The position numbers and the translations under genes are program-made. The notes beneath the pieces were generated by a model. The model was not told where the DNA came from and ran no database searches. It saw only the letters and a list, made by a program, of their open reading frames with translations. From NCBI RefSeq assembly GCF_013376475.1, contig NZ_CP045508.1, positions 248,001-312,000 of the forward strand: 64,000 nucleotides of DNA. The letters run 5' to 3'. This document shows positions 25,545-63,831 of the stretch, piece after piece. The DNA comes from Desulfolutivibrio sulfoxidireducens (lineage in GTDB: Bacteria > Desulfobacterota > Desulfovibrionia > Desulfovibrionales > Desulfovibrionaceae). Position 1 is the stretch's first letter. Every line of letters starts with the position of its first letter.

Positions 25545-26261
25545 TTATTGCCTGGGCGCGACCAGGATCCTGTCGGCGTCTTTTTCCTGGAAATACAGGC
25601 GCAGCCCGTCGCTTGTGGCGCAGACCACGGGATTGTGCCGGCCCAGGCGCATGACCTGTCCGGCCGTGACGCTTGTGAGCGACAGGCGGGTGCCGGGCTT
25701 GATGTGCAGGGAATCGAAGGTCGCCCTGGCGTTTTCCCCGGCCAGGATGTGGGTGACCACGAAGTCCTCGCCGACCCCCACGCCGCAGAACTGGACCTGT
25801 CCGGTCGGGGTCTGGCCCAAAAGTTTGGAGGCCTGCCCCTCGCCCAGGCGCACCCGGGTCTTGCCGTCCACCAGGACGTTGTAGGCCATGGGCGGCAGCC
25901 GGCGCACAAAGGTGATGCGGTCGTTTTCCTTGAGCCCCAGGGCCTCGATGGACTGGGCGAAGCGGTCCTGGCCGATGATGCCCTCCACATGCCCGGTCTC
26001 GCCCGGTTTGCATTCCAGAAGGGGCAGACGGCGGTCGTCGTCGAGATGCACCACCATCTTGGCCGCCCAGGAGCCGCTTAAGACCGCCTCGCCCAAGGGG
26101 CCGCGAACCTTGACCGGTTCCACGGCCACGGACTCGCCAAGGCGCATGAGCGAGGTGCCCACGAACACTCCCAGACGGCCCATGCGCGCGCCGAATCCCT
26201 GGCCCACGATTTTTCCCACGGTCAGAGGGATTCCCAGGGGAGCCTTGGTCAAGGGGGTCAC
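25545..26261 (-). CDS. FeoA-domain protein of the ferrosome-like operon
   Basis: The protein has 238 residues and starts with a GTG that overlaps the stop of the P1B ATPase gene. The middle part (about 78-150) is a FeoA/SH3-like domain: LLECKPGETGHVEGIIG, then IEALGLKENDRITFVR. The sequences before and after (PVKVRGPLGEAVLSG; LHIKPGTRLSLTSVTAG) look like further beta-barrel units, so it may carry two or three FeoA-like repeats. FeoA domains accompany ferrous iron transport, which agrees with the Fur box at the operon head and the neighbouring metal ATPases. Confidence 0.78.
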   Translation of the reverse strand: MTPLTKAPLGIPLTVGKIVGQGFGARMGRLGVFVGTSLMRLGESVAVEPVKVRGPLGEAVLSGSWAAKMVVHLDDDRRLPLLECKPGETGHVEGIIGQDRFAQSIEALGLKENDRITFVRRLPPMAYNVLVDGKTRVRLGEGQASKLLGQTPTGQVQFCGVGVGEDFVVTHILAGENARATFDSLHIKPGTRLSLTSVTAGQVMRLGRHNPVVCATSDGLRLYFQEKDADRILVAPRQ

Positions 26262-28417
26262 GATGCCACCTCCTGCGTGGAGAGACTCGGATGGGCTGAT
26301 TTTTCGGCCCTGTCCAGGGGGCGGCCGGCGGCCATGGCCGCATAGCCGAGAATGCCCACAGTGCTGACGTTGTGCAAAAGGGCCGAGGCCAGGGGAGAGA
26401 GCCCGGAGCCGGCCATGAACAGGATAAGCGAATTGAGTCCGATGGTCGAATAAAAGCAGTGCTTGACGATCGTGTTGGTGCGCATGGCCGCCTTTTTGGC
26501 TGTGGGCAGGGCGTGCAGGTCCTCGCTCAAAAGCAGGACCTGGGCCGCCTCCCGGGCCAGGTCCGCGCCATTGGGCATGCAGATGCCCACATCGGCGGTC
26601 ATAAGCGCCGGGGCGTCGTTGACCCCGTCGCCCACGTAGGCCAGCTTGCGGCCGGACTTTTTGAGTTCGGCCACGATGGCCGCCTTGTCCTCGGGCTTGA
26701 GCTCGTGGTGGATCTCGTCGATCTGCGGGAGCTGCCGGGCCAGGGCGTTGGCCGTCTCGCGGTGGTCGCCGGTTAAGACCACCACCCGGGTGATGCCGGC
26801 CGCCTTGAGGGCGTCCAGCACGGCCCCGGCCTCGGGGCGCGGATCGTCGCGCAGGGCGATGATTCCCAGGAGGGTCTTCTCCCTGGCCACATAGAGCAGG
26901 GATTTGCCCTGGCGGCGCAGGTCGTGGGCGGCCTGGTCGCAGGCCTCGCAGGGCACGCCCTCGTCCTCGGCGATGAAGTGGTGGCTGCCGACCAGCACGT
27001 TTTGGCCGTCGATGGTCGCGGACACGCCGTGGGCCACGATGAAGTCCACCCGGCTGATGGGCGGCAGGGGCAGCTTGCGGGCCTTGGCCTCGCGCACCAC
27101 GGCCCGGGCCACGGGATGGTCGTAGTGTTCCTCGGCCCCGGCGGCCAGGCTCAAAAGTTCCTCAGGCCCCAGTCCGTCGGCGGGCAGCAGGTCCGTGACC
27201 GCGATCTCGCCCGTGGTCAGGGTGCCGGTCTTGTCGAAGACGATGGTGTCCACGTCGTGGAGGGCGTCCAGGGCCGAGGCGCCCTTGAGCAGCACCCCGG
27301 CCTTGCCCGCGGCGTACATGCCGGACCTGACGGCCACGGGGCTGGCCAGCTTGACCGCGCAGGAGAAGTCCACGGTGAGCACCGAGGCGGCCCGGTTCAT
27401 GTCCCGGGAGGTGACGAGCTTGATCCCGGCCAGGGCCAGGGTCAGGGGCACGAGCTTGTCGGCCAGTTCGGAGCTTTTGGTCTGGGTCTTGGACTTGCCG
27501 CGCAGGGACTGCTCGATGAAGCGGCTGATGCGGGCCAGGGAGGTCTCCGAGCCCACCCGGTCCACGGTGATCAGAAGCCGCCCCTCCTCCACCACGGACC
27601 CGGAGATGACCGTGTCCCCGGGCCTGATGTGCACGGGCACGGACTCGCCGGAGATGGAGCTTTGATTGACCGAGGCCTCGCCCTCGGCCACGACGCCGTC
27701 GATGGGGATCAGCTCCCCGGCCCCGCAGACCACCACATCGCCCGCCTGGACCTGGGAGGCCGGAATCTCGCTCTCCACCCCGTCCCGGACCACCCACAGG
27801 GTCTCGGCCTGGGGGCGCAGCAGGCCCTTGAGCAGGGCTGTGGAGCGTTTTTCCGTGCTGTCTTCGAGATAGCGGCCCAGGGCCAGCAGGGTGGTGATGG
27901 CCCCGGCCGTGAAATAGTGGCCGCGAAGCAGCGACAGGGTGATGGCCGCGCCGTCCAGGACCTCGACCTTAAGGCCCCTGGTGACCAGGGTCTCGGCCCC
28001 CTGGACGATGGTTGGCAGGCCGACGCCCCAGCTCACGGCGGCCTTGGCCGGATACGGCAGGCCCGTGGCGGCCAGGGTCAAAAGGCCTTTGGCGGCCACG
28101 TCGCCCAGGCTCACGCGGCTGTCGGCGGCCCGGCCGCAGTGGTAGGCCTCGTCCGGGACATCCTCCAGTCGCGCGGCCAGCCGTCGCCAGGTCTCGGCCC
28201 GGCCGTCGTGGGCCACGACCAGGGCCTTGCCCCGGGCGTTGATCCGGACCTCGTCCACCCCGGGCACGGCCTCGACCATGGCCTGGAAGTAGCCCGCGTC
28301 AAAGGACGGATCGCCAAAAAGCGGCGAGGTGAGGCGCACCCGGCAGGGCAGGACGTGGGCCACGGTGAACCGGCCCACGTCCTGCCCGACCATGACGCGT
28401 TCGGGTGTTTCGTTCAT
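26258..28417 (-). CDS. fezB: P1B-type (SCA motif, P1B-6-like) metal-transporting ATPase, FezB-like
   Basis: The protein has 719 residues. The ATG overlaps the preceding gene stop; an extra 15-residue open leader upstream is not conserved. Core P-type motifs are intact: SGES (actuator), DKTGT (phosphorylation), DHP, TGD and GDGVND. The membrane metal site is not CPC: the residues are Ser352-Cys353-Ala354 in VDFSCAVKLASP, the SCA type assigned to subgroup P1B-6. The N-terminus carries Arg16, eight residues, then CRVR, like the arginine motif reported for ferrosome FezB/FezC proteins. Such ATPases load iron into ferrosome vesicles. The symbol is by family and context, not by alignment. Confidence 0.82.
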   Translation of the reverse strand: MNETPERVMVGQDVGRFTVAHVLPCRVRLTSPLFGDPSFDAGYFQAMVEAVPGVDEVRINARGKALVVAHDGRAETWRRLAARLEDVPDEAYHCGRAADSRVSLGDVAAKGLLTLAATGLPYPAKAAVSWGVGLPTIVQGAETLVTRGLKVEVLDGAAITLSLLRGHYFTAGAITTLLALGRYLEDSTEKRSTALLKGLLRPQAETLWVVRDGVESEIPASQVQAGDVVVCGAGELIPIDGVVAEGEASVNQSSISGESVPVHIRPGDTVISGSVVEEGRLLITVDRVGSETSLARISRFIEQSLRGKSKTQTKSSELADKLVPLTLALAGIKLVTSRDMNRAASVLTVDFSCAVKLASPVAVRSGMYAAGKAGVLLKGASALDALHDVDTIVFDKTGTLTTGEIAVTDLLPADGLGPEELLSLAAGAEEHYDHPVARAVVREAKARKLPLPPISRVDFIVAHGVSATIDGQNVLVGSHHFIAEDEGVPCEACDQAAHDLRRQGKSLLYVAREKTLLGIIALRDDPRPEAGAVLDALKAAGITRVVVLTGDHRETANALARQLPQIDEIHHELKPEDKAAIVAELKKSGRKLAYVGDGVNDAPALMTADVGICMPNGADLAREAAQVLLLSEDLHALPTAKKAAMRTNTIVKHCFYSTIGLNSLILFMAGSGLSPLASALLHNVSTVGILGYAAMAAGRPLDRAEKSAHPSLSTQEVAS

Positions 28418-28644
28418 GCGCGATGTCCCCGGGAATCGGTGTCGCGTTGGTACAGGCTCCAATGCCAGTAGGAGAAGCCCACCAGGGCCAGCCCGGAGAA
28501 CAGGTGCACGTTGCGCACCGTCTGTCCGGTCTGGCCGCCCATGCGCTCCATGAATCCCGTGGCCAGAAGCGTGCCCAGGGATACGGCCATGCCGACCTTG
28601 GCCAGTTCACGCTTGCCGCGCAGGGTCTCAGGTTTTGTCCGCAT
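28414..28644 (-). CDS. small two-helix membrane protein of the ferrosome-like operon
   Basis: The protein has 76 residues with two hydrophobic segments (about 17-33 and 47-62) and a short charged tail. His and Trp residues in VRNVHLFSGLALVGFSYWHW resemble small cytochrome-b-like or DUF4405-type helices, so heme or metal binding is possible but unproven. It overlaps genes on both sides: its start lies inside the 28628-28933 gene and its stop overlaps the fezB start. This tight packing shows it is a real gene of the operon. Confidence 0.75.
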   Translation of the reverse strand: MRTKPETLRGKRELAKVGMAVSLGTLLATGFMERMGGQTGQTVRNVHLFSGLALVGFSYWHWSLYQRDTDSRGHRA

Positions 28645-28933
28645 CGCCTTTCATGCTCATTTCGGCCTTGATATCGTGGATTTGTTCCTTGACCTCTTCA
28701 ATGCCGCCCTGGACCGAGCTCCACACGGAGACCACGCCCTTGACCAGGGCCTTTTGCACCTTTTCGTTGGTCAGAAGGTAGGTCAGGCCGGCGCCGAGCA
28801 GGGCGCCCTTGAGGTATCCGGGGTCGGAGAAGGCCAGCCAGCCCTGACTCCAGGACGTGGTCGACGGATAGCCGGCGGCGGTGGTCTGGGCGTATCCGCC
28901 GTCGGTGGGGGGATACTGGGGATGGTGCGACAT
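28628..28933 (-). CDS. Gly-zipper membrane protein with YLKGALLGAGLTYLLTN domain
   Basis: The protein has 101 residues. A Pro/Tyr/Ser-rich N-terminus of about 35 residues precedes one glycine-zipper membrane helix (KGALLGAGLTYLLTNEKVQ), then an amphipathic helix and a short charged coiled coil (EEVKEQIHDIKAEM). The same helix block occurs at the C-terminus of the repeat protein at 29439-30656, so the two are related. Proteins of this form occur in ferrosome clusters, where they are thought to be membrane or cargo components. That function is inference. Confidence 0.75.
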   Translation of the reverse strand: MSHHPQYPPTDGGYAQTTAAGYPSTTSWSQGWLAFSDPGYLKGALLGAGLTYLLTNEKVQKALVKGVVSVWSSVQGGIEEVKEQIHDIKAEMSMKGDADKT

Positions 28934-28946
28934 CCGGGACGCTCCT

Positions 28947-29363
28947 TTACCCCTTGGCCGGGGCTTTGGCGGTTTCCGTCTTGGCGGTGGTCTTGGCGGC
29001 GGGCTTGGCCGCGGCCTTGGCGGCCTTGGCCTTGATGACCGCCAGTCCGGTCACGCCGTCGTAGATGTACTTGGTGCCGATCCCGACGGCGGCCATGGCC
29101 GCCAGTCCCAGGATGCTGGAGCGGAAAAAGGTCCCGGCCACGGCCCCGACGGCGGTGGCCAGTCCGGTGCCCACGGCCTCCTTGAGGATGTGTCCGGCGG
29201 CGGCCTCGCGGGTCATGTCGCCTTCCTTGACCTGGCGCAGATCCTTGGCAGCGGCCACGGTGCCGCCGATGACGGCCCCGGCCAGTCCCATGGCGGTGAC
29301 GGCGCCCACGGGCAGGGCGGCCGGACGGATCGGATAGGTCTGGGTTTTCTGCTGTATGGACAT
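28947..29363 (-). CDS. Gly/Ala-rich membrane protein with Lys-Ala-Pro tail
   Basis: The protein has 138 residues. Two glycine-zipper hydrophobic stretches (around VGAVTAMGLAGAVIGGTVAAA and GTGLATAVGAVAGTFF to LGLAAMAAVGIG) are separated by a charged linker. The last 30 residues are a low-complexity AK/AP/TK tail resembling histone-H1-like or magnetosome-associated tails. An AAGGAAGG site precedes the ATG. A basic tail next to a metal organelle cluster could bind phosphate, polyphosphate or mineral, but this is speculation. No named domain was recognised. Confidence 0.75.
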   Translation of the reverse strand: MSIQQKTQTYPIRPAALPVGAVTAMGLAGAVIGGTVAAAKDLRQVKEGDMTREAAAGHILKEAVGTGLATAVGAVAGTFFRSSILGLAAMAAVGIGTKYIYDGVTGLAVIKAKAAKAAAKPAAKTTAKTETAKAPAKG

Positions 29364-29438: not shown

Positions 29439-30656
29439 TTATTCGCCGCCGGCCTTGGCCCCGCCGAAGATGGCCGAGAAGGTGTCGCCCATGGCGGATT
29501 TCACGGCGCTGTTGGTCAAAAGAAAGGTCACGGCCGCGCCCACGATGGCGCCCTTCCAGAAGTGGGTGCCCGTGGAGGTCAGAAAGGCCGCGATCTTGGA
29601 GGGATCGGCCTTGCCCTGCATCAGGTCGTTGCACAGTTCGATCATCTGGCCGTAGCGGTATTCCAGGTGCTTGGGGTCCTCGCTCGGCGAGCCCGCCCCG
29701 AAGCCGGGGAATCCGAAAAAGCCGGGCTGGGCCTGGGAGGCGGTCTGTTCCTCATGGCCGCCGTGGCCGCCGTGGCAATTGCAATGGCCTTTTTTGCCCT
29801 CGCCTTCCTCATGGTCGTGGGGCGCGCCGGCGGCCATTTCCGGGCCGGGCGTCGGGCCGTATTGCGGCGCGTACTGCGGTCCCTGGGGCGCGGCGTAGTG
29901 CGGGGCGTACTGCGGCGCGCCGAACTGGGGAGCCGCCTGAGGTCCCTGATAGGCGTATTGCGGTCCCTGTGGCGCGGCGTACTGCGGCCCCTGGGGAGGC
30001 GCGGCGTGCGGGGCGTACTGCGGCGCCTGGGGCGCGCCGTACTGCGGGGCGGCCTGAGGTCCCTGATAGGCGTATTGCGGCCCCTGTGGCGCGGCGTACT
30101 GCGGCCCCTGGGGAGGCGCGGCGTGCGGGGCGTACTGGGGCGCCTGGGGCGCGCCGTACTGCGGGGCGGCCTGCGGCCCCTGATAGGCGTACTGCTGGCC
30201 GAGGCCGGCCTCGGCCCTGGGCGGCTCGGGCTGGGCCGGGGCCTGAGAGTACCCCTTGGCGTAGCCGCTGGGGCCCTGGGAGACGTAGCCTTTGGGACCT
30301 TCCTGGACCGGGGCCTGGACCGGGGCCTTGGGCGCCTCGGGCTGGAAAGGGGCCTGGGCCTGGATCGGGGCCTGGACCGGCGGCTGTTCCTGGCCCTTGG
30401 CCGGGTTTTGGCCCATGTACCGGTTTTGCCCTTCTTCTTCCTTGTGGTCCTCGGCGCGGGATTCGGCCGCTGCCGCCGTCATCGGCTCGCCCGCCTGGGG
30501 AGAGCCGACCGGCCCGACAGGGCCAACCGGGCCGGGCTGGGCGTACCCGCCAGTTTCCGCCTCGGGTGCGTAGCCGGCCAGGACGCCGCCGGGCATGGGC
30601 ATGCCCGTGACGGCGTACGCCGGGGCGTACCCTTCCTGATACGTCGTGTTTTCCAT
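29439..30656 (-). CDS. Pro/Gln/Tyr-repeat protein with C-terminal Gly-zipper membrane helix
   Basis: The protein has 405 residues. The N-terminal 280 or so residues are low complexity: Pro/Gly/Ala/Gln, then tandem repeats built on QGPQYA and APQYGAPQAPQ with a 39-residue period (117 bases; almost three copies). A His/Gly/Glu cluster follows (DHEEGEGKKGHCNCHGGHGG), a likely metal-binding spot, and then a folded C-terminus with FWKGAIVGAAVTFLLTNSAV, the same block as in the 28628-28933 protein. The composition is prion-like and may drive self-association, suggesting a scaffold for vesicle or organelle assembly. An AGGAG site precedes the ATG. Confidence 0.8.
   Translation of the reverse strand: MENTTYQEGYAPAYAVTGMPMPGGVLAGYAPEAETGGYAQPGPVGPVGPVGSPQAGEPMTAAAAESRAEDHKEEEGQNRYMGQNPAKGQEQPPVQAPIQAQAPFQPEAPKAPVQAPVQEGPKGYVSQGPSGYAKGYSQAPAQPEPPRAEAGLGQQYAYQGPQAAPQYGAPQAPQYAPHAAPPQGPQYAAPQGPQYAYQGPQAAPQYGAPQAPQYAPHAAPPQGPQYAAPQGPQYAYQGPQAAPQFGAPQYAPHYAAPQGPQYAPQYGPTPGPEMAAGAPHDHEEGEGKKGHCNCHGGHGGHEEQTASQAQPGFFGFPGFGAGSPSEDPKHLEYRYGQMIELCNDLMQGKADPSKIAAFLTSTGTHFWKGAIVGAAVTFLLTNSAVKSAMGDTFSAIFGGAKAGGE
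29870..30195. repeat. 117-bp in-frame tandem repeat
   Basis: The segment repeats with a 117-base period: the same CCCTGATAGGCGTA phrase starts at 29944, 30061 and 30178. It is an exact multiple of three and encodes the 39-residue Pro-Gln-Tyr unit of the surrounding gene. Copies are close to identical, so copy number may vary between strains. Confidence 0.9.
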
Positions 30657-30668
30657 TCTCGATCTCCT

Positions 30669-30986
30669 CTAGGATTGAGGTGTCAGGCCAAAAGACGCGG
30701 ACAGTTCCCTGGCCATGTCGGCCGTACGATCCGGGTCTTTGTTGGTGAAAAAGTCTTCCACGCGGGCGGGGTCGAGCCGGGCCGGGTCGTATTCCAGGAC
30801 CAGTGACCGGGCTAAAACATTGATCCGGGCGCGAAACGCGCCGTTTCCCTTTTCGGCCAGGGCGGCCAGGGCCTTGGCCTTGGGATGATGGCGGACGGCC
30901 GGATCGAGTTTGAGCCGGATGCGTCCGGGCACGTGGTGGGCCACGGCGATGAACCGCTTGAGTTCCACGATGTCCTCGATGTTCAT
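30669..30986 (-). CDS. small GRIR-motif (HMA-like) protein of the ferrosome-like operon
   Basis: The protein has 105 residues. The N-terminus contains Arg11, nine residues, then GRIRLKL, close to the Arg-X8-GRxR motif reported for ferrosome proteins and also seen in both ATPases of this operon. The following part (INVLARSLVLEYDP) has the beta-alpha-beta pattern of a heavy-metal-associated fold but no CxxC, so it is not a copper chaperone. No membrane segment is seen. It overlaps the second ATPase gene stop by ATGA. It may be a targeting or adaptor subunit of the organelle. Confidence 0.72.
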   Translation of the reverse strand: MNIEDIVELKRFIAVAHHVPGRIRLKLDPAVRHHPKAKALAALAEKGNGAFRARINVLARSLVLEYDPARLDPARVEDFFTNKDPDRTADMARELSASFGLTPQS

Positions 30987-33160
30987 GCGTCCTCTCCGGA
31001 TGTCGCGGCCGGGAGGGGGATGGCCGGGCGGTATGTCAAAAGCCGCGAGGAATTGGCCAGGACCCCCAGGGTGTGCACGATATGCAACAGCCCGGCGGCC
31101 ACCGGCGAGAGAACCCCCAACGCCCCGGCCAATGCCCCGCCGAGGTTGGTGGAGGTGGCGATCCAGAAGTTCTGGCGGGCCACGCGCAGGGTCTGGCGGC
31201 TCAAGTCGCGCACGTAGAGGATGTCGGCCAGATCGTCCTTGACCAGGGCGATGTCCGCGGCCTCGATGGCCACGTCCGAGCCGCCCGCGCTCATGGCGAT
31301 GCCGATGTCGGCGTCGGCCAGGGCCAGGGCGTCGTTGATGCCGTCGCCGACCATGATCACCCGGTTGGTCCCGTTTTTCAGCTCGCGCACGATGTCCGCC
31401 TTTTGCTCGGGCAAGACGCTGTGCCGGCATTCCTCGATGCCCAGGGATCGGCACAGGGTGACGGCCGTGTTCTCGGTGTCCCCGGTGACCAGGGCCACCT
31501 TGGAGACCCCGGTGCGGTACAACTCGCGTACCGTGGCGGCGGCGTCCGGGCGCAGCTCGTTGGCAAACCCCAGGGCGGCCAGGACCGTGTCGTTTTTGGC
31601 CAGAAAGATGATCGTCAGCCCCCGTTCGCCCAGGGCCGTGACCCGCTGTGCGGCTCCTCCCGTGTCGATGCCGGCCTCGTCCAGGTAGCGGCGGTTGCCC
31701 AGGCGGATGACGTCGGTACCGAACACGGCCCGCACGCCCTTGCCCAGGGTGAAGTCGCATTCGATGTGCGAGATGGGGTCGATGCCCCGGGACACGGCCT
31801 CGTGCTTGACGGCCAGGGCCAGGGGATGGTGGTTGTGCATCTCCGCCGAATAGGCCCACAAGAGAAGCTCGTCCTCGGACAGCTCCGAGAAATTGAGGAT
31901 TTCCTCGATGCGCGGCTGGTTGGTGGTCAGGGTGCCGGTCTTGTCGAAGCACACCACCTCGGCCTTGCCCACCTCCTCCAGGTACCGGCCGCCCTTGATC
32001 AGGATGCCGCGTCTGGCCGCGGCGGACAGGGCGGAACTGATGGCCGTGGAGGCCGAAAGGACCGTGGCGCAGGGGCAGGCCATGACCAGAAGCACGGTGA
32101 AGGCCCGCCACAGGCTGCCGGTCAGGACAAGGGTGCCCAGGGTCGTCCACATGCCGATGCGCAACAGCCTTCGGGCCAGATCGTCGCCCGTGGTCTCGAT
32201 GGGGGCCTTGTTCTCCAGGGAGTCCTCCACCAGGCGCATGATCCGGGCCAGGTAGGTGGCGTCTCCCACGCATTCGGCCCGGACGTGGATGATGCCCTGG
32301 CGCACGTAGGCCCCGGCGAAGACCTTGTGTCCGGTGGTCCGCAGTTCCGGTTCGGCCCGGCCGGTGATGGGCGATTCGTCCACCAGGGCCTGGCCGGAGA
32401 TGACCAGGCCGTCCACGGAGATTTTTTCGCCCGTGTGCAGGACCACGATGTCCCTCGGCCTGACCGCGGACACAGGCACCTCCACCTCCACCTCGCCGGC
32501 CAGGATGAAGGTGTTTTTGGCCGTAAGATCCAGGATGGCCGAGATGGAGCGTCGGGCGCGTTCGGCCACGTAGGCCTTGAGGGTCTCGGCGCCGGCGTGG
32601 ATCCACAGGATCTCCAGGGCCGTGACCGCCTGTCCGGCGGCGGCGGCGGCCACGCACCCGGCGGCCAGAAAGCCCTCCATGGTGAAGCGCTTCTGTCTGG
32701 CGTGGCGCAGGGATTCGCGCAAAAGCGGCACGGCGGCGGCCAGGGCCACCAGCCCCAGGGGCGAGAGCAGGGTCTGGGCCACGGTGCCCTTGAGCACCAC
32801 CTCCTTGACGAAGACGTAGGACATGGCCCCGGTCAAGGACAGAAAGCGGGCGAGCTGGCGCCCCACAGACGACCGGGGTTTCTCGGCCGGGCAGACGCAG
32901 GCCGGGGCCTTGCGCTCGGGAAGCCGGTTCTCGGCCCGCCCGGGCATCACGGCCCGCACGGCCTCGACGATGGCCGTCTGGCTGGAACGTTTCGGGTCGT
33001 AGCGCACCACCAGGGCGGCGCAGGCCTGGTTGACGCGGGAGTCGAGGACCCCGGGGAGGTTCGCGCAGGCGTTCTTGGCCGTGGCCAGGAGCGATTTCGG
33101 GCGCAGGGCCAGGCGCAGACGTCCGGGCAGGGCGTGTTTGATGCGAAGGGTGGCGTTCAT
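30983..33160 (-). CDS. second P1B-type ATPase (CPC motif) with altered actuator motif
   Basis: The protein has 725 residues and is the first gene of the operon. An HMA-like N-terminus without CxxC carries PGRLRL. The membrane motif is ACPC, the Cu/Zn-type site. DKTGT, HHP and GDGIND are present. The actuator loop reads ITGRAEP: the TGE glutamate needed to dephosphorylate the enzyme is Arg268. Either this pump works differently or it is a regulatory, transport-dead partner of the FezB-like ATPase. The ATG has no clear Shine-Dalgarno; a TTG at 33277 is a weaker alternative that would lie inside the Fur box. Confidence 0.85.
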   Translation of the reverse strand: MNATLRIKHALPGRLRLALRPKSLLATAKNACANLPGVLDSRVNQACAALVVRYDPKRSSQTAIVEAVRAVMPGRAENRLPERKAPACVCPAEKPRSSVGRQLARFLSLTGAMSYVFVKEVVLKGTVAQTLLSPLGLVALAAAVPLLRESLRHARQKRFTMEGFLAAGCVAAAAAGQAVTALEILWIHAGAETLKAYVAERARRSISAILDLTAKNTFILAGEVEVEVPVSAVRPRDIVVLHTGEKISVDGLVISGQALVDESPITGRAEPELRTTGHKVFAGAYVRQGIIHVRAECVGDATYLARIMRLVEDSLENKAPIETTGDDLARRLLRIGMWTTLGTLVLTGSLWRAFTVLLVMACPCATVLSASTAISSALSAAARRGILIKGGRYLEEVGKAEVVCFDKTGTLTTNQPRIEEILNFSELSEDELLLWAYSAEMHNHHPLALAVKHEAVSRGIDPISHIECDFTLGKGVRAVFGTDVIRLGNRRYLDEAGIDTGGAAQRVTALGERGLTIIFLAKNDTVLAALGFANELRPDAAATVRELYRTGVSKVALVTGDTENTAVTLCRSLGIEECRHSVLPEQKADIVRELKNGTNRVIMVGDGINDALALADADIGIAMSAGGSDVAIEAADIALVKDDLADILYVRDLSRQTLRVARQNFWIATSTNLGGALAGALGVLSPVAAGLLHIVHTLGVLANSSRLLTYRPAIPLPAATSGEDA

Positions 33161-33275
33161 GGCGTGAGCGGTGTCCGGATACTTTTCAGGCGGCGGGTTT
33201 ACGAAAACAGACAAGCGTGGCCAGGGCGGCGTTTCCGGCCGCGCCGCGCCGGCGCCGGCCAACTCTGTCGAATCC

Positions 33276-33294
33276 AATAATGATTTCCATTCTC
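33276..33294 (-). promoter_or_regulatory. Fur box upstream of the ferrosome-like operon
   Basis: On the minus strand GAGAATGGAAATCATTATT matches the 19-base Fur consensus GATAATGATAATCATTATC at 15 of 19 positions. It lies 116 bases upstream of the second ATPase start and overlaps a TTGTCA that could be a -35 element. Iron-dependent repression of the operon is the expected outcome. Confidence 0.75.
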
Positions 33295-33324: not shown

Positions 33325-33498
33325 GTCCGCGCAAGGGGTTTTGCGCCAGAGGTCCGGGTTGGCACTGAGAGATGATCGCCGTCCGGCGCGACGTCCGGCG
33401 AGACGGTTTCGCGCCGGACGTCCGGGCTGGCCATGAGAGATGACTGTCGTCAGGCGTGTCGTCCGCAAGACGGTTTCGCGCCGGACGTCCGGGCGGGT
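33325..33498. repeat. 68-bp imperfect tandem repeat, about 2.6 copies
   Basis: Units begin at 33325, 33393 and 33461 with GTCCGnnnnAnnnGGTTT and contain GCGCCGGACGTCCGGG followed by GAGAGATGA. The exact 68-base spacing and internal CCGGACGTCCGG palindrome are clear. The array fills the space between the glnA stop and the Fur box; together with the promoter it accounts for the 355 bases from 33161 to 33515 without a gene. It may act as a terminator or be a degenerate repeat element. Confidence 0.8.
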
Positions 33499-33515: not shown

Positions 33516-34859
33516 TCAGAGTTGCTGCAGATATTCTTTTATTTCATATTTTGTGACCAACGTGTTGTACTCGCTGCAATCGATCATTTTGTTCCGATAC
33601 AATTTTTCGTGGATGTGATCGCCGAGGGTTTCCCTTACGAGGGTGCTCGACCCCATTTCCTGGGCCGCCTCGTACAGACTGTCCGGAAGGGAGCCGATAC
33701 CATGTGTAACGAGCGCCTTGTGATCCATTTCGTAAATATTCGACTCCACGGGATCAGGCAGATCATATCCCTCCTCAAGGCCTTTGAAACCGGCCGCGAG
33801 CATGACGGCAAAGGCAAGATAGGGATTGCACGCCGGATCGGGGCTGCGCAATTCGACCCTGGTGGCGTTTTCCTTGCCGGGTTTGTACATCGGCACGCGG
33901 ACGAGGGTGGACCGGTTCCGACGGGCCCAGGCGATATATGTCGGGGCCTCGTACCCGGGGACGAGCCGTTTGTAGGAATTAACCCATTGATTGGTGACAC
34001 AGCATATTTCTCTGGAGTGTGTTAACAGTCCCGCTATGTATCCTTTTGCCTCCTTGCTCAAATGATACGTGTCCGAGGCATCGAAAAAGACGTTCTTCCC
34101 GTTTTTGAACAAGGACTGATGCACGTGCATGCCGCTGCCGTTTATCCCGAAGATGGGCTTGGGCATAAAAGACGCGTAGCATCCATGCCTGGCCGCGATC
34201 TCCTTGCAGATGATCCGGTACGTGACAGCGATGTCGGCCATCCTCAAGGCCTCTTGATATCTCAGGTCTATCTCGTGCTGACTGCTGGCCACCTCGTGGT
34301 GGCTGTACTCGACCTCGATGCCCATGTCCTCCAGGGCGCAGATGATCTCCCGCCTGATTTTGACCCCCAAATCCACGGGAGGGGCGTCGAAATACCCGCC
34401 GACGTCCAGCGGAACCGGCTGCGTGCGTGATGCAAAGAGAAAGAACTCGAGTTCCGGTCCCAGATAAAAGGTATATCCGCTTTCCGACGCCTTTTTTAAG
34501 ACCTTCTTCAAAATATACCGGCTGTCTCCCTCGTAAGGCGTCAGATCGGGCTTGAGAATGTCGCAGAACACCCGGGCGACCAGATACTCCTCGTTCCGCC
34601 ACGGAAGAATCTGAAAGGTTGACGGTTCCGGCATCGCGAGCATGTCGGATTCCTCCACCCGGGCGAAGCCGTGGATCGAGGATCCGTCGAAGCCCATGCC
34701 TTCGCCGAAGGCCGCGGGCAGCTCTCGCGCTGTGACCTCGAAACTCTTCAGGTCCCCAAGGACATCGACGAACCAGAACTGAATGAACCGGACATTGTGT
34801 TCCCGGACGACCTTCATGACGTCCGCCGGCGTTTTCAGGTCAAAAACCATGTCTTTCAT
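33516..34859 (-). CDS. glnA: glutamine synthetase, type I (alpha-like)
   Basis: The protein has 447 residues and starts at the ATG of KDMVFDLKTPADVMKVV. Active-site blocks are present: FGEGMGFDGSSIHGF, HHEVASSQHEI, and NGSGMHVHQS. The length and absence of the insert and adenylylation tyrosine region point to the GSI-alpha subtype, which is feedback-inhibited rather than adenylylated. It assimilates ammonium into glutamine. It is downstream of, and on the same strand as, the glutamate-synthase-like gene (92-base gap), so the pair can act as a GS-GOGAT unit. Confidence 0.93.
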   Translation of the reverse strand: MKDMVFDLKTPADVMKVVREHNVRFIQFWFVDVLGDLKSFEVTARELPAAFGEGMGFDGSSIHGFARVEESDMLAMPEPSTFQILPWRNEEYLVARVFCDILKPDLTPYEGDSRYILKKVLKKASESGYTFYLGPELEFFLFASRTQPVPLDVGGYFDAPPVDLGVKIRREIICALEDMGIEVEYSHHEVASSQHEIDLRYQEALRMADIAVTYRIICKEIAARHGCYASFMPKPIFGINGSGMHVHQSLFKNGKNVFFDASDTYHLSKEAKGYIAGLLTHSREICCVTNQWVNSYKRLVPGYEAPTYIAWARRNRSTLVRVPMYKPGKENATRVELRSPDPACNPYLAFAVMLAAGFKGLEEGYDLPDPVESNIYEMDHKALVTHGIGSLPDSLYEAAQEMGSSTLVRETLGDHIHEKLYRNKMIDCSEYNTLVTKYEIKEYLQQL

Positions 34860-34951: not shown

Positions 34952-36592
34952 TCAGGAATTCAGCAGGTTTTTGGCGACCTCATCCTGGACGTCGGTGATG
35001 AACGGAATCTTGGTTTCCAGTTCCGTCTCACGGTTGGCCGAGGCGATGTCGCTACGGCTGATATCCTTGATGGAATGCTTTCTCGCCCCGGCGAGGAGTT
35101 GCTGCAATCCGGCCGAAAGCTTGTCGGCCAGCGACCAGATGGCCATGGCGCCGTAAGGAACCTCCTTGATTCCCTGGCTCCCGACCTTTTTCAGGATGTC
35201 GTAATAACCGGAAAAAATCTGTTCCGGACTCTCTCCCACCTCCCGGATCGATTTGGGGAGCGTGGCCCAGTTGCCGTGCACCGCTTCCCGGCGTTCGGGA
35301 TGCAGGGCGCCCTCGATGTTCGCCCCGAGGAAACCGGGAATCATCACCCCGCGCCCCATACAGATCATCTTGACGTACGGGGCCCCGAGGGCCAGGGCCT
35401 TGAACATGTGATCCTCGCGAGCCAGGCCGCCGGCAAAGGAGAGGTCCACCACCTTTTTGCCCTTGGCCGCAAGCAGGGAGGCGTATTCGTAGGCCTTGGA
35501 ATGCAGCAGGATGGACGGCACGCCCCAGGTTTCCATCATGTTCCACGGGCTCATGCCGGTTCCGCCCCCGGAGCCGTCGATGGTCAAAAGATCAAGATTG
35601 GCCTCGCTGGCGAACTTGATGGCCATGGCCAGGGCCTCCATCCCATAGGAGCCCGTCTTCAGGGAAATATGCCTGAACCCGAGCTTGCGCAGGTAATCCA
35701 CCGACAGCATGAAGTTTTCCTTCACCTGGTCGGCATTGGCGAGGCTGGTGTATCCAAGGCGGCTGTGGCGGGCGAAGCTCTTGATGGCGCGCTGTCTGAA
35801 GGCGTTTTGGACCTCTTCCTTTTCCGGATCGGGATCCACGAGATAGCCGCGTTTCTTGAGGAAGTTGGCGTAATCGAGGTTGGTGACCTCGATCTCCCCG
35901 CCGATGTTCTTCGCACCCTGGCCCCACTTGAGTTCGATGAAGACCTTGTCCCCATATTTGTCGATCACATACTCCGCGACGCCGTTTCGGGTGTCCTCCA
36001 CGTTGAGCTGGATAATGATCGCCCCATGCCCGTCATGAAATCGCATGTAGGTTTCAACGCGCCGGTCCAGTTCGGGTGATTTGGAAATCTTTCCATTTTG
36101 AATTTCCGATTTCCTGTCCACGCCAACGACATTTTCCCCGACCACGATGGGAATGCCCACCAGGGCACAGCCGATAGCGAACGATTCCCAGTACTTCGCC
36201 GCGATGAACGTGGAGCCGAGGGCCCCGGTCATCAGGGGGAGCCTGGCGGTCGTTTTCTCTTCGCAACCGAACTCCGTCTCCAGGCTCACATTGGTGAAGA
36301 GGCATTCATCCGAATCGTTGGGCTTGCATTTCCCGTTTCCACTCCACCCGTAATTATATCCCTGGATTCGCATCGCATTATATGAAACCCCAAGATGGGT
36401 CGTGTTCCCGCTTCCCGCGGTAACCAATCCAAAATCCCTTGGGTAAAGCATGCTGCGGCCCTTGAAGCTTGACATCCAGGTTTCACATTTCCCCGTACAA
36501 TCAGCCCGGCACAACGTGCACAATCCGGACTCCGTGGAGTTCCCCCTGTTTACAGTCCCTAACACATCATTTGATTTTTGTACCTGAGACAT
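34952..36592 (-). CDS. FMN-binding glutamate synthase-like protein with N-terminal Cys cluster
   Basis: The protein has 546 residues. The ATG follows AGGAGG; the frame remains open upstream but through the operator array. The body is the FMN/synthase domain of GltB (TIDGSGGGTGMSPW, LSFAGGLAREDHM, MGRGVMIPGFLG). It has no amidotransferase domain, so it is an archaeal-type stand-alone synthase or an ammonia/amine-handling relative. A cysteine cluster at residues 25, 28, 32 and 36 (CTLCRADCTGKC) sits before it and may bind an iron-sulfur cluster. A TATACAAT on the minus strand near 36625-36632 is the best -10 candidate; palindrome S1 would then be centred near -46. Confidence 0.87.
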   Translation of the reverse strand: MSQVQKSNDVLGTVNRGNSTESGLCTLCRADCTGKCETWMSSFKGRSMLYPRDFGLVTAGSGNTTHLGVSYNAMRIQGYNYGWSGNGKCKPNDSDECLFTNVSLETEFGCEEKTTARLPLMTGALGSTFIAAKYWESFAIGCALVGIPIVVGENVVGVDRKSEIQNGKISKSPELDRRVETYMRFHDGHGAIIIQLNVEDTRNGVAEYVIDKYGDKVFIELKWGQGAKNIGGEIEVTNLDYANFLKKRGYLVDPDPEKEEVQNAFRQRAIKSFARHSRLGYTSLANADQVKENFMLSVDYLRKLGFRHISLKTGSYGMEALAMAIKFASEANLDLLTIDGSGGGTGMSPWNMMETWGVPSILLHSKAYEYASLLAAKGKKVVDLSFAGGLAREDHMFKALALGAPYVKMICMGRGVMIPGFLGANIEGALHPERREAVHGNWATLPKSIREVGESPEQIFSGYYDILKKVGSQGIKEVPYGAMAIWSLADKLSAGLQQLLAGARKHSIKDISRSDIASANRETELETKIPFITDVQDEVAKNLLNS

Positions 36593-37089
36593 TCCATCCT
36601 CCTCATATTTTTTTGAGCACAAAAAATTGTATACATGGACGATACCGCAGGGTTGTTGTCGTATATTTCCGATACCTGTACGCATTGGACGATCATGTAC
36701 ATCCATGTCGTATTTTTCCGACACGCCATGAGCCGAAAATGAGAACACCACAACTTTGTCGTATTTTTCTGACAGTATGCGGAGACGAAGAAGAGATATC
36801 CACACCATTCTTGTCGTATTTTTCTGACAATATGTGGAGAAGAAGAAGAGATATCCACAGTCGTGTCGTATTTTTCCGACATCTTTTGCGGAATGTGATC
36901 CTGTGTTTGTGGACAGGCCCTGGCGTGGGGGAGGAATACGCCAACGACCGAGGCCGCGGCGTCCTTCAGCGGGATGGGCATGGGCATGTGGACGTGGTCG
37001 GGAGCATGATGTCCCGCCTTCACGCCGCGCGGCGGGCCTCCTGTTTGACCGGGCATGGGCGCCGTGCTAGGTGTCCAAAACGCAAGAAG
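36593..37089. promoter_or_regulatory. divergent regulatory region with five phased 18-bp palindromes
   Basis: This stretch has no gene. It carries TGTCGTATTTTTCYGACA-type palindromes at 36657-36674 (degenerate), 36706-36723, 36757-36774, 36812-36829 and 36864-36881. Spacing is 49, 51, 55 and 52 bases, about five helical turns. The intervening DNA repeats a GAAGAAGAGATATCCACA phrase. A weak sigma-54-like element (GG-N10-GC) lies at 36910-36924 pointing to the regulator operon. An array like this would let one regulator bind cooperatively on a single DNA face; the regulator is not identified. Confidence 0.75.
36706..36881. repeat. four near-identical 18-bp palindromes (operator array)
   Basis: The four best copies of TGTCG-N8-YGACA sit at 36706, 36757, 36812 and 36864. 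Their central TATTTTTC is invariant, so they keep the same orientation. Invariance over the spacer suggests selection or recent duplication. Confidence 0.85.
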
Positions 37090-63371: not shown

Positions 63372-63831
63372 GTGAAGGGGGGGCGTTCAAGACACGTTCT
63401 CACCGGACCGGGGCGAACGTTTCGGCTTGCGTGGGATCGATCCGGACGGCCTCGCCTTTTCCCTGACCCGCCACGAGAGTTTCCTTGGGCGAGGGCTTTC
63501 ACGTCCCTCTTCCGGAACATCGCATCGCTGATTTTGAATCATGATCGGAAGTCCCTCTTGTGCAAAAAATACATGTGCACGTTGCACATGTGCAGAATGA
63601 ACGTGTGCACTATGCACATGTACCCCATGAAGGCTGATCCATGTCGGCGGGATCTGAACAGGCTTGGTTGTGAATCAGGAGCCAAAACGTCTGCCGAGCC
63701 AATCCATAAAAGGCGTTTCGCATCAATAAAAATGGTTTTTTGAAAAGAATACCATGCTCTGGGGCTAAAGCTTTTGTCATCGCGTCCGATAAGAGCTGTA
63801 AATTTCCACCATTTTTCTCAGGGGGTTCATC
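63372..63831. promoter_or_regulatory. regulatory region with paired TGTGCA palindromes
   Basis: No gene is seen in these 460 bases. A 19-base palindrome CATGTGCACGTTGCACATG lies at 63572-63590 and a second TGTGCACTATGCACA at 63604-63618; centres are 30 bases apart, about three helical turns. A half site TTGTGCA is at 63559. These resemble the motif before the paralogue at 62844. The last 200 bases are AT-richer and should hold the promoter for the gene at 63832. Confidence 0.7.

Follow-up and report, generated by a model that had tools for sequence, protein, structure and literature searches.

A membrane-anchored low-complexity protein of conserved composition in a putative ferrosome-type P1B6-ATPase cassette of Desulfolutivibrio sulfoxidireducens

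The window analysed in this work is a stretch of 64,000 nucleotides of the Desulfolutivibrio sulfoxidireducens genome (contig NZ_CP045508.1, positions 248,001 to 312,000). It encodes a low-complexity, membrane-anchored protein of 405 amino acids with an ATG start (29439..30656 (-)), the greater part of which, about residues 1-327 (29676..30656 (-)), is an N-terminal tract rich in P, A, G, Q and Y. Both its composition and an AlphaFold model of the full protein (22-row alignment) mark this tract as disordered: residues 1-327 are predicted to be coil throughout, with block pLDDT values mostly of 41-55 and of 63 in the last block. Within the tract lies a 117-bp (39-aa) tandem repeat of 2.5 copies (29910..30200 (-); TRF, 93% matches), and the initial annotation had correctly described a 39-residue unit present almost three times: identical 39-mers occupy residues 155-193 and 194-232, and a partial, diverged third copy begins at residue 233. 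The two identical copies have five nucleotide differences, all five of them at third codon positions. The 39-residue period reaches a z of 8.8, where the highest of 40 shuffles gives 3.5, and none of the 40 other open reading frames of at least 150 amino acids in the window equals the protein in low complexity or in PQYGMHN content, so that neither the repeat nor the tract is to be ascribed to chance. The description 'prion-like', which had also been given, is a poor label, as the tract is rich in Q and Y but its N-terminal 320 residues contain 14.4% Q, 1.2% N and 18.1% P; prion-like domains are Q/N-rich and proline-poor.

A His/Cys cluster, PHDHEEGEGKKGHCNCHGGHGGHEEQ, follows the repeats as had been claimed (residues 279-304; 29745..29822 (-)), and the predicted membrane-helix domain is confirmed at the C-terminus. 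This conserved C-terminal domain of 83 (about 80) amino acids (29442..29690 (-)) contains the membrane helix FWKGAIVGAAVTFLLTN (residues 366-382; 29511..29561 (-)), located by the motif FWKGA.VGA and by AlphaFold, which places helices at residues 328-346, 352-361, 365-381 and 383-398 of the full protein and returns the same four for the C-terminal 83 residues alone (50 sequences; mean pLDDT 73.6, pTM 0.36). The membrane helix is short and moderately to marginally hydrophobic (Kyte-Doolittle 19-residue maximum 1.36), and the sequence and the AlphaFold model show neither a signal peptide nor any further hydrophobic segment N-terminal to residue 365. Pfam and NCBIfam, taken at their cut-offs, assign the protein to no family, nor does Pfam assign one to 15 of the C-terminal domains; there is likewise no NCBIfam match in three gammaproteobacterial members of the family, and a PDB sequence search with the C-terminal domain gave a best E of 0.28. 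Glycos_trans_3N scored 15.8-19.3 bits (cut-off 26) in five of the 15 domains and was rejected, as we take this match to be a coincidental resemblance in the helical part that precedes FWKG.

The gene is the third of an operon transcribed in the order ATP1, HMA_2-type protein, low-complexity protein, MamC-like protein, TM2, ATP2 and FeoA-domain protein. ATP1 (30983..33277 (-)) is a P1B-type heavy-metal ATPase with CPC in TM4, and its true start is probably downstream of the TTG. The HMA_2-type protein (105 aa; 30669..30986 (-)) scores 29 bits with HMA_2, for which the curated cut-off is 30, and the FeoA-domain protein (238 aa; 25545..26261 (-)) scores 53.1 bits against a cut-off of 23. TM2 (101 aa; 28628..28933 (-)) is a short paralogue of the membrane domain of the low-complexity protein and carries a conserved tail, EE.KE...D..AE. 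ATP2 (26258..28462 (-)) is a second P1B-type ATPase, FezB-like, with the P1B6-type motifs DFSCAVKLASP in TM4 and LLHN in TM6. The MamC-like protein (138 aa; 28947..29363 (-)) matches NCBIfam MamC with E 7.7e-13 and 48.6 bits, the curated cut-off being 100.

A cassette of HMA_2, low-complexity protein, MamC-like protein, TM2 and an ATPase with P1B6 motifs occurs in Desulfobacterota, Gammaproteobacteria and Alphaproteobacteria. When genome contigs were scanned with an alignment of 15 sequences (pattern FWKGA.VG[AT]), the yield was 121 stretches; 87 of them were relatives, of which 80 were kept as loci, among Desulfovibrio relatives, Desulfobulbus, Desulfobacter, Chromatiaceae, Shewanella, Vibrio, Photobacterium, Kluyvera, Methyloligella and Paracoccus. 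Most of the 108 loci entered the set through the C-terminal domain, so that the presence of this domain is given by construction and that of the tract is not; related species among them are not independent, and open reading frames were called mechanically, some with N-termini that are too long (e.g. L053, L009). Pairs of loci from the same genome (L012/L063, L043/L065, L044/L064, L049/L067 and L051/L074) were removed from the counts over 103 or 104 loci, were partly removed from the Fur-site count, in which identical upstream regions were skipped, and are still inside the count of 113 cassettes with both paralogues. Near the low-complexity protein at 104 distinct loci we find the MamC-like protein 103 times, TM2 99, ATP2 97, HMA_2 72, ATP1 48 and the FeoA-domain protein 39 times. 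MamC-like protein, TM2 and ATP2 occur together on the same strand at 97 of these 104, and five of the remaining seven are contig ends; the membership of the low-complexity protein in the cassette is well supported.

Within the Desulfovibrionaceae the C-terminal 83 residues find a match in 45 of 288 genomes (14 of 44 genera) and TM2 in 47, all 45 being among the 47; the two additional genomes, G185 and G189, carry the DUF6110 type, and in genomes G016 and G202 the match of the TM2 profile is the low-complexity protein itself. A TM2-like query was positive in 13 of 397 genomes of the Hyphomicrobiales; two of these (L206 and L207) are without a tract, and the others were scored as having one on one or both paralogues. 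These two TM2 searches are tests blind to the low-complexity region; in a gammaproteobacterial sample the TM2 profile was positive in 2 of 321 genomes, too few for such a test. None of 5426 E. coli genomes gave a match with 80% coverage, there being just a 60-base likeness to copA, and a search of plasmids gave one Vibrio record, which is without annotation.

The operon is preceded by a Fur-box-like site (33276..33294) with 15 matches of 19 to an E. coli consensus, which was used for all Fur-like scoring. It is the best Fur-like 19-mer of the window, and 20 random windows reach 13 at most. Of 96 regions upstream of cassettes, 36 have a site with at least 14 of 19 matches, as compared to 27 of 1028 regions upstream of other open reading frames at the same loci. 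FeoB is present at 29 of 103 distinct cassette loci, where about one would be expected by chance at this locus size (73 FeoB_C matches in 32 cassette genomes, or roughly 2.3 in each). The two FeoB genes of D. sulfoxidireducens are both far from the operon. The Fur-like boxes and the feoAB neighbours in relatives tie the cassette to iron.

The two parts of the low-complexity protein differ in what is conserved. FWKGA.VGA is invariant in 50 of 50 sequences of the C-terminal domain, and over 171 pairs from 19 representatives the alignment of the C-terminal 75 amino acids has a median z of 19.2, with every pair above 5. For the tracts of the same pairs the median z is 0.7, which is the level of composition-preserving shuffles, and nine pairs exceed 5. 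The composition of the tract is, by comparison, correlated across the 171 pairs (median 0.73, minimum 0.31). Very short N-termini were left out, a minimum of 60 residues ahead of the juxtamembrane region being required (95 of 99 proteins kept), and all 95 homologues hold a 100-residue window of at least 50% PQYGMHN, as do 63 of 1212 background open reading frames. Relative to background the tracts are enriched in P (3.1), Q (3.0), M (2.9), Y (2.8), G (1.8) and H (1.5) and depleted in L (0.08), I (0.12), R (0.17) and K (0.24), and this composition is kept also in loci of 38-46% G+C (Vibrio L132, L058 and L062). Internal periodicity beyond all shuffles is found in 33 of the 95 tracts. The 39-mer is private to the protein studied here, its best ungapped match elsewhere being 23 of 39 in a protein of the same genus, and it is a private duplication, one lineage's way of building a tract of lasting composition. 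The initial annotation was to be refuted by absence of the repeat tract from relatives that still make ferrosomes, and the outcome is divided: the 39-mer is absent from every relative, and a tract of the same composition is present in all 95 homologues. A long Lys/Glu-containing tail was also observed after the membrane helix of gammaproteobacterial versions (L103 9560-10333, L111 9437-10357 and L097 9614-10309), with the look, by eye, of an amphipathic helix; the Desulfovibrio versions are without it.

TM2 and the low-complexity protein share 35% identity over 40 residues by BLASTP and align with an hhalign probability of 98.3, and TM2 itself reads FWKGA in L071, L076, L087 and L108; these likenesses identify the two as paralogues. 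Across 113 cassettes with both paralogues, the tract lies on both in 79, on the FWKG protein only in 26, on TM2 only in seven and on neither in one, such that all but one of the 113 (112; five genomes counted twice) bear the tract on one paralogue or both. In the alphaproteobacterial loci L164, L166, L208, L209 and L210 the FWKG-type protein is about 80-110 residues long and the tract is on TM2, and we read from these gene pairs that the tract has moved from the FWKG protein to TM2 in several Alphaproteobacteria. L072, L084 and L131 were considered as further relocations and rejected, the first protein being read as 54-86 amino acids and L084 and L131 lying at contig ends. Neither paralogue of Paracoccus halophilus L120 has a tract, and none is found in the alphaproteobacterial L206 and L207, which were obtained without selection for the FWKG protein, or in the DUF6110-type cassettes L204 and L205.

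The TM2 profile also finds proteins of the Desulfovibrionaceae genomes G185 and G189 (E 1.3e-7 and 1.5e-7), which score 31.8 and 18.4 bits, respectively, with Pfam DUF6110, so that the first passes and the second falls short of its cut-off of 26. An hhalign comparison of TM2 with three DUF6110-type proteins gave a probability of 74.5, and at E 0.1 Pfam DUF6110 is listed for none of 23 TM2 members. TM2 is, we suggest, homologous to DUF6110, that is, to PacL-like proteins encoded with P1B6 pumps. The DUF6110-type genes of L204 (3000-8000) and L205 (3000-6400), both from Desulfovibrionaceae, stand in a separate cassette, which consists of an HMA_2 protein (seen in L204), a short Cys-containing protein, a small membrane protein, the DUF6110-type protein and a P1B ATPase.

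The nearest described system in terms of protein architecture is that of PacL. PacL1 is described as a membrane domain joined to repeats, a disordered stretch and a motif that binds metal (PMC9374683) and is proposed to be a scaffold of P-ATPase clusters (PMC9374683, PMC13043812), and DUF6110 proteins are described as related to DUF1490/PacL and as typically encoded with P1B6 ATPases (PMC9374683). The low-complexity protein resembles PacL1, PacL2 and PacL3 of Mycobacterium tuberculosis (DUF1490) in having a small Gly-motif membrane anchor, here FWKGA.VGA, as well as repeats, a disordered part, a candidate metal-binding motif and an adjoining gene for a P1B-type ATPase. It differs in that its disordered part precedes the membrane helix and consists of 200-350 residues of P, G, A, Q, M, Y and H, whereas PacL has Glu/Ala repeats. 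DUF1490 was rejected as its family, there being no Pfam match in the protein or in 15 C-terminal domains; DUF6110 has no match in these either, nor anywhere in the D. sulfoxidireducens genome.

The second likeness is to the fez clusters of ferrosomes. FezB is reportedly a P1B6 ATPase; FezA, a small membrane protein, is a DUF6110 protein in C. difficile, and FezC is a DUF4405-like cytochrome, present in D. magneticus. Shewanella has a six-gene fez operon. FezA and FezB, and no other Fez protein, are named as required for C. difficile ferrosomes (PMC12574912), and Rhodopseudomonas palustris CGA009 has six fez genes, RPA2333-2338 (PMC12016538). The cassette shares with these clusters a P1B6-type ATPase, Fur-type control, as judged from the box and upstream enrichment given above, and an occurrence in Desulfovibrio relatives, Shewanella and other Proteobacteria. 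LHN is found in TM6 of 101 of 114 ATP2-type ATPases, along with DYSCA.KL..P-like motifs in TM4, and HN in TM6 is given as a P1B6 feature in PMC9374683; the FezB-type feature of ferrosome clusters is hence found in the motifs of ATP2. The complete ATPases beside the DUF6110 genes of L204 and L205 have the same two motifs. Unlike fez clusters, the cassette is without FezC/DUF4405 in the window: DUF4405 was rejected as a neighbour of the operon, both matches in the genome (782702 and 3251087, the window being 248001-312000) being distant. A scan of nine genomes behind the loci did find DUF4405 matches, which speak for presence in the genome and not for nearness. We do not treat the absence of FezC as decisive, as it is not taken as defining for all ferrosome clusters. 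With its P1B6-like motifs, Fur-like box, feoAB in relatives and the likeness of TM2 to DUF6110, the 'iron-organelle operon' of the initial annotation is well supported as a ferrosome-type cassette.

A third likeness, to magnetosomes, is through the next gene. A MamC relative is the neighbouring gene within the cassette, in the window and in L103, L097, L105, L081 and L165, and all six of these proteins match the NCBIfam MamC model at scores below its cut-off. Some of the genera with this neighbour are not known to be magnetotactic.

The cassette, the conservation pattern, the paralogy, the predicted disorder, the Fur-like site and the iron-gene neighbourhood were all computed here, and the reading that we prefer, at slightly less than an even chance, is that an iron-responsive P1B6-ATPase cassette of the ferrosome type has in this protein its low-complexity subunit, a brush or condensate that would cluster the pump and help to shape the membrane. 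With its short, Gly-rich membrane helix and an amphipathic helix on either side, the C-terminal domain would anchor the protein beside the pump while the N-terminal 200-350 residues remain unfolded, and selection would act on which residues these are (P, G, A, Q, M, Y and H, with almost no L, I, K or R) and not on their order. Dense tethering could then give a brush or soft condensate in which the ATPase complex is clustered, the steric pressure of the brush may bend or stabilise the pump-bearing membrane, and side chains of His, Met and Tyr, and of Cys in some lineages, might hold iron locally. Disordered domains are described as bending membranes through steric pressure (PMC4515776), and the long unfolded, membrane-tethered domains of the eukaryotic Epsin1 and AP180 offer a possible mechanism, although there is no homology and the analogy is physical only. 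The tethered low-complexity coat of the initial annotation is thus a plausible best reading, now in a sharper form, with a composition that is kept, a sequence that is free and a tract that is movable. Several points count against it, namely the marginal hydrophobicity of the membrane helix, the tract-less loci L120, L206, L207, L204 and L205, by which the tract is not universal, the lack of a FezC/DUF4405 gene in the cassette and of a feoB near the operon of D. sulfoxidireducens, and that no experiment linking the cassette to ferrosomes in any organism could be named; that the cassette would make ferrosomes in D. sulfoxidireducens is part of the preferred reading. The literature searched gave no earlier description of a disordered or low-complexity ferrosome protein, and Grant 2022 or its supplement may hold one.

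The side of the membrane on which the tract lies bears directly on this reading. In 97 proteins the flank on the C-terminal side has more K and R than that on the N-terminal side in 69, and the reverse is true in four; net charges are about -2.5 (N-flank) and +0.7 (C-flank) in the group of Gammaproteobacteria and others, and almost even, at -1.10 and -0.84, in the Desulfovibrionaceae. These charges lean towards a tract outside the cytosol and count against a cytosolic coat. They favour, by their positive-inside tendency, the rather unlikely but strongest alternative, that the tract is a lumenal mineral matrix, inside the vesicle and hence topologically periplasmic, which would bind and template an iron phase. 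The scarcity of K and R in the tract, its richness in M, Y and H and the neighbouring relative of the magnetosome gene mamC would suit such a matrix as well, while the almost even charges in the Desulfovibrionaceae do not. To move an N-terminal tail of 200-350 residues across a membrane without a signal peptide is unusual, and no such peptide or other hydrophobic segment precedes residue 365. We prefer a cytosolic brush because nothing visible would carry these residues across.

Somewhat less likely again is a PacL-like metallochaperone, in which the anchor and the His/Cys cluster (29745-29822) would feed the ATPase and the tract would be a passive linker. The architecture reported for PacL1 agrees with this, and the Cys pair recurs within the genus as well as in several further Desulfobacterota. 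Of 95 tracts, however, a close Cys pair is found in 18 (17 loci by the strict CxC pattern, as the one used also accepts directly adjacent Cys), at least two Cys in 23 and at least five His in 57, whereas the composition of the tract is kept in all 95. Metal binding by the cluster, which had been suggested previously, accordingly retains candidate ligands, but these are limited to certain lineages.

It is improbable that repeat slippage in G+C-rich genomes produced the tract as a neutral by-product and that the C-terminal domain alone does the work. The unconserved sequence of the tract, the significant periodicity in 33 of 95 and the existence of tract-less cassettes would be expected of slippage, but the composition is kept across classes and at low G+C, all but one of the 113 cassettes have a tract on one paralogue or the other, with relocation in Alphaproteobacteria, and the repeat copies differ at third codon positions only. 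An envelope or surface scaffold unrelated to the organelle is very improbable: low-complexity proteins of the P/Q/G/Y kind can serve a structural role at the cell surface, but here there is no signal peptide, the position beside a metal-pump cassette is conserved and a Fur-like site is present.

Returning to the tethered brush or condensate, the question that it touches is how lipid-bounded iron organelles get their shape and how their pumps get clustered. A tract whose composition is kept while its sequence turns over, and which in some lineages moves to the paralogue, suggests that its role is a physical one, as brush, condensate or matrix. We would extend this, tentatively and with the balance somewhat against us, to the proposal that in Proteobacteria and Desulfobacterota the ferrosome-type iron organelles have a membrane-tethered low-complexity polymer of their own, selected for its composition alone and movable between paralogous anchors, which would be a bacterial counterpart of disordered coats or biomineral matrices and give the organelle its shape or mineral environment. 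Three literatures, on ferrosome-type pumps, PacL effluxosome scaffolds and magnetosome MamC, are joined here by sequence.

Three further repeats were observed in the window. A 68-bp tandem repeat of 2.5 copies (33330-33494) lies between the Fur-like box and a glutamine-synthetase-like open reading frame (33516-34859), and a 55-bp tandem repeat of 2.3 copies (36757-36881) overlaps or lies upstream of a glutamate-synthase-like one (34952-36808), both frames being named by eye. At the end of the window there is a 15/30-bp repeat around ACATGTGCACAATGC (63571-63631).
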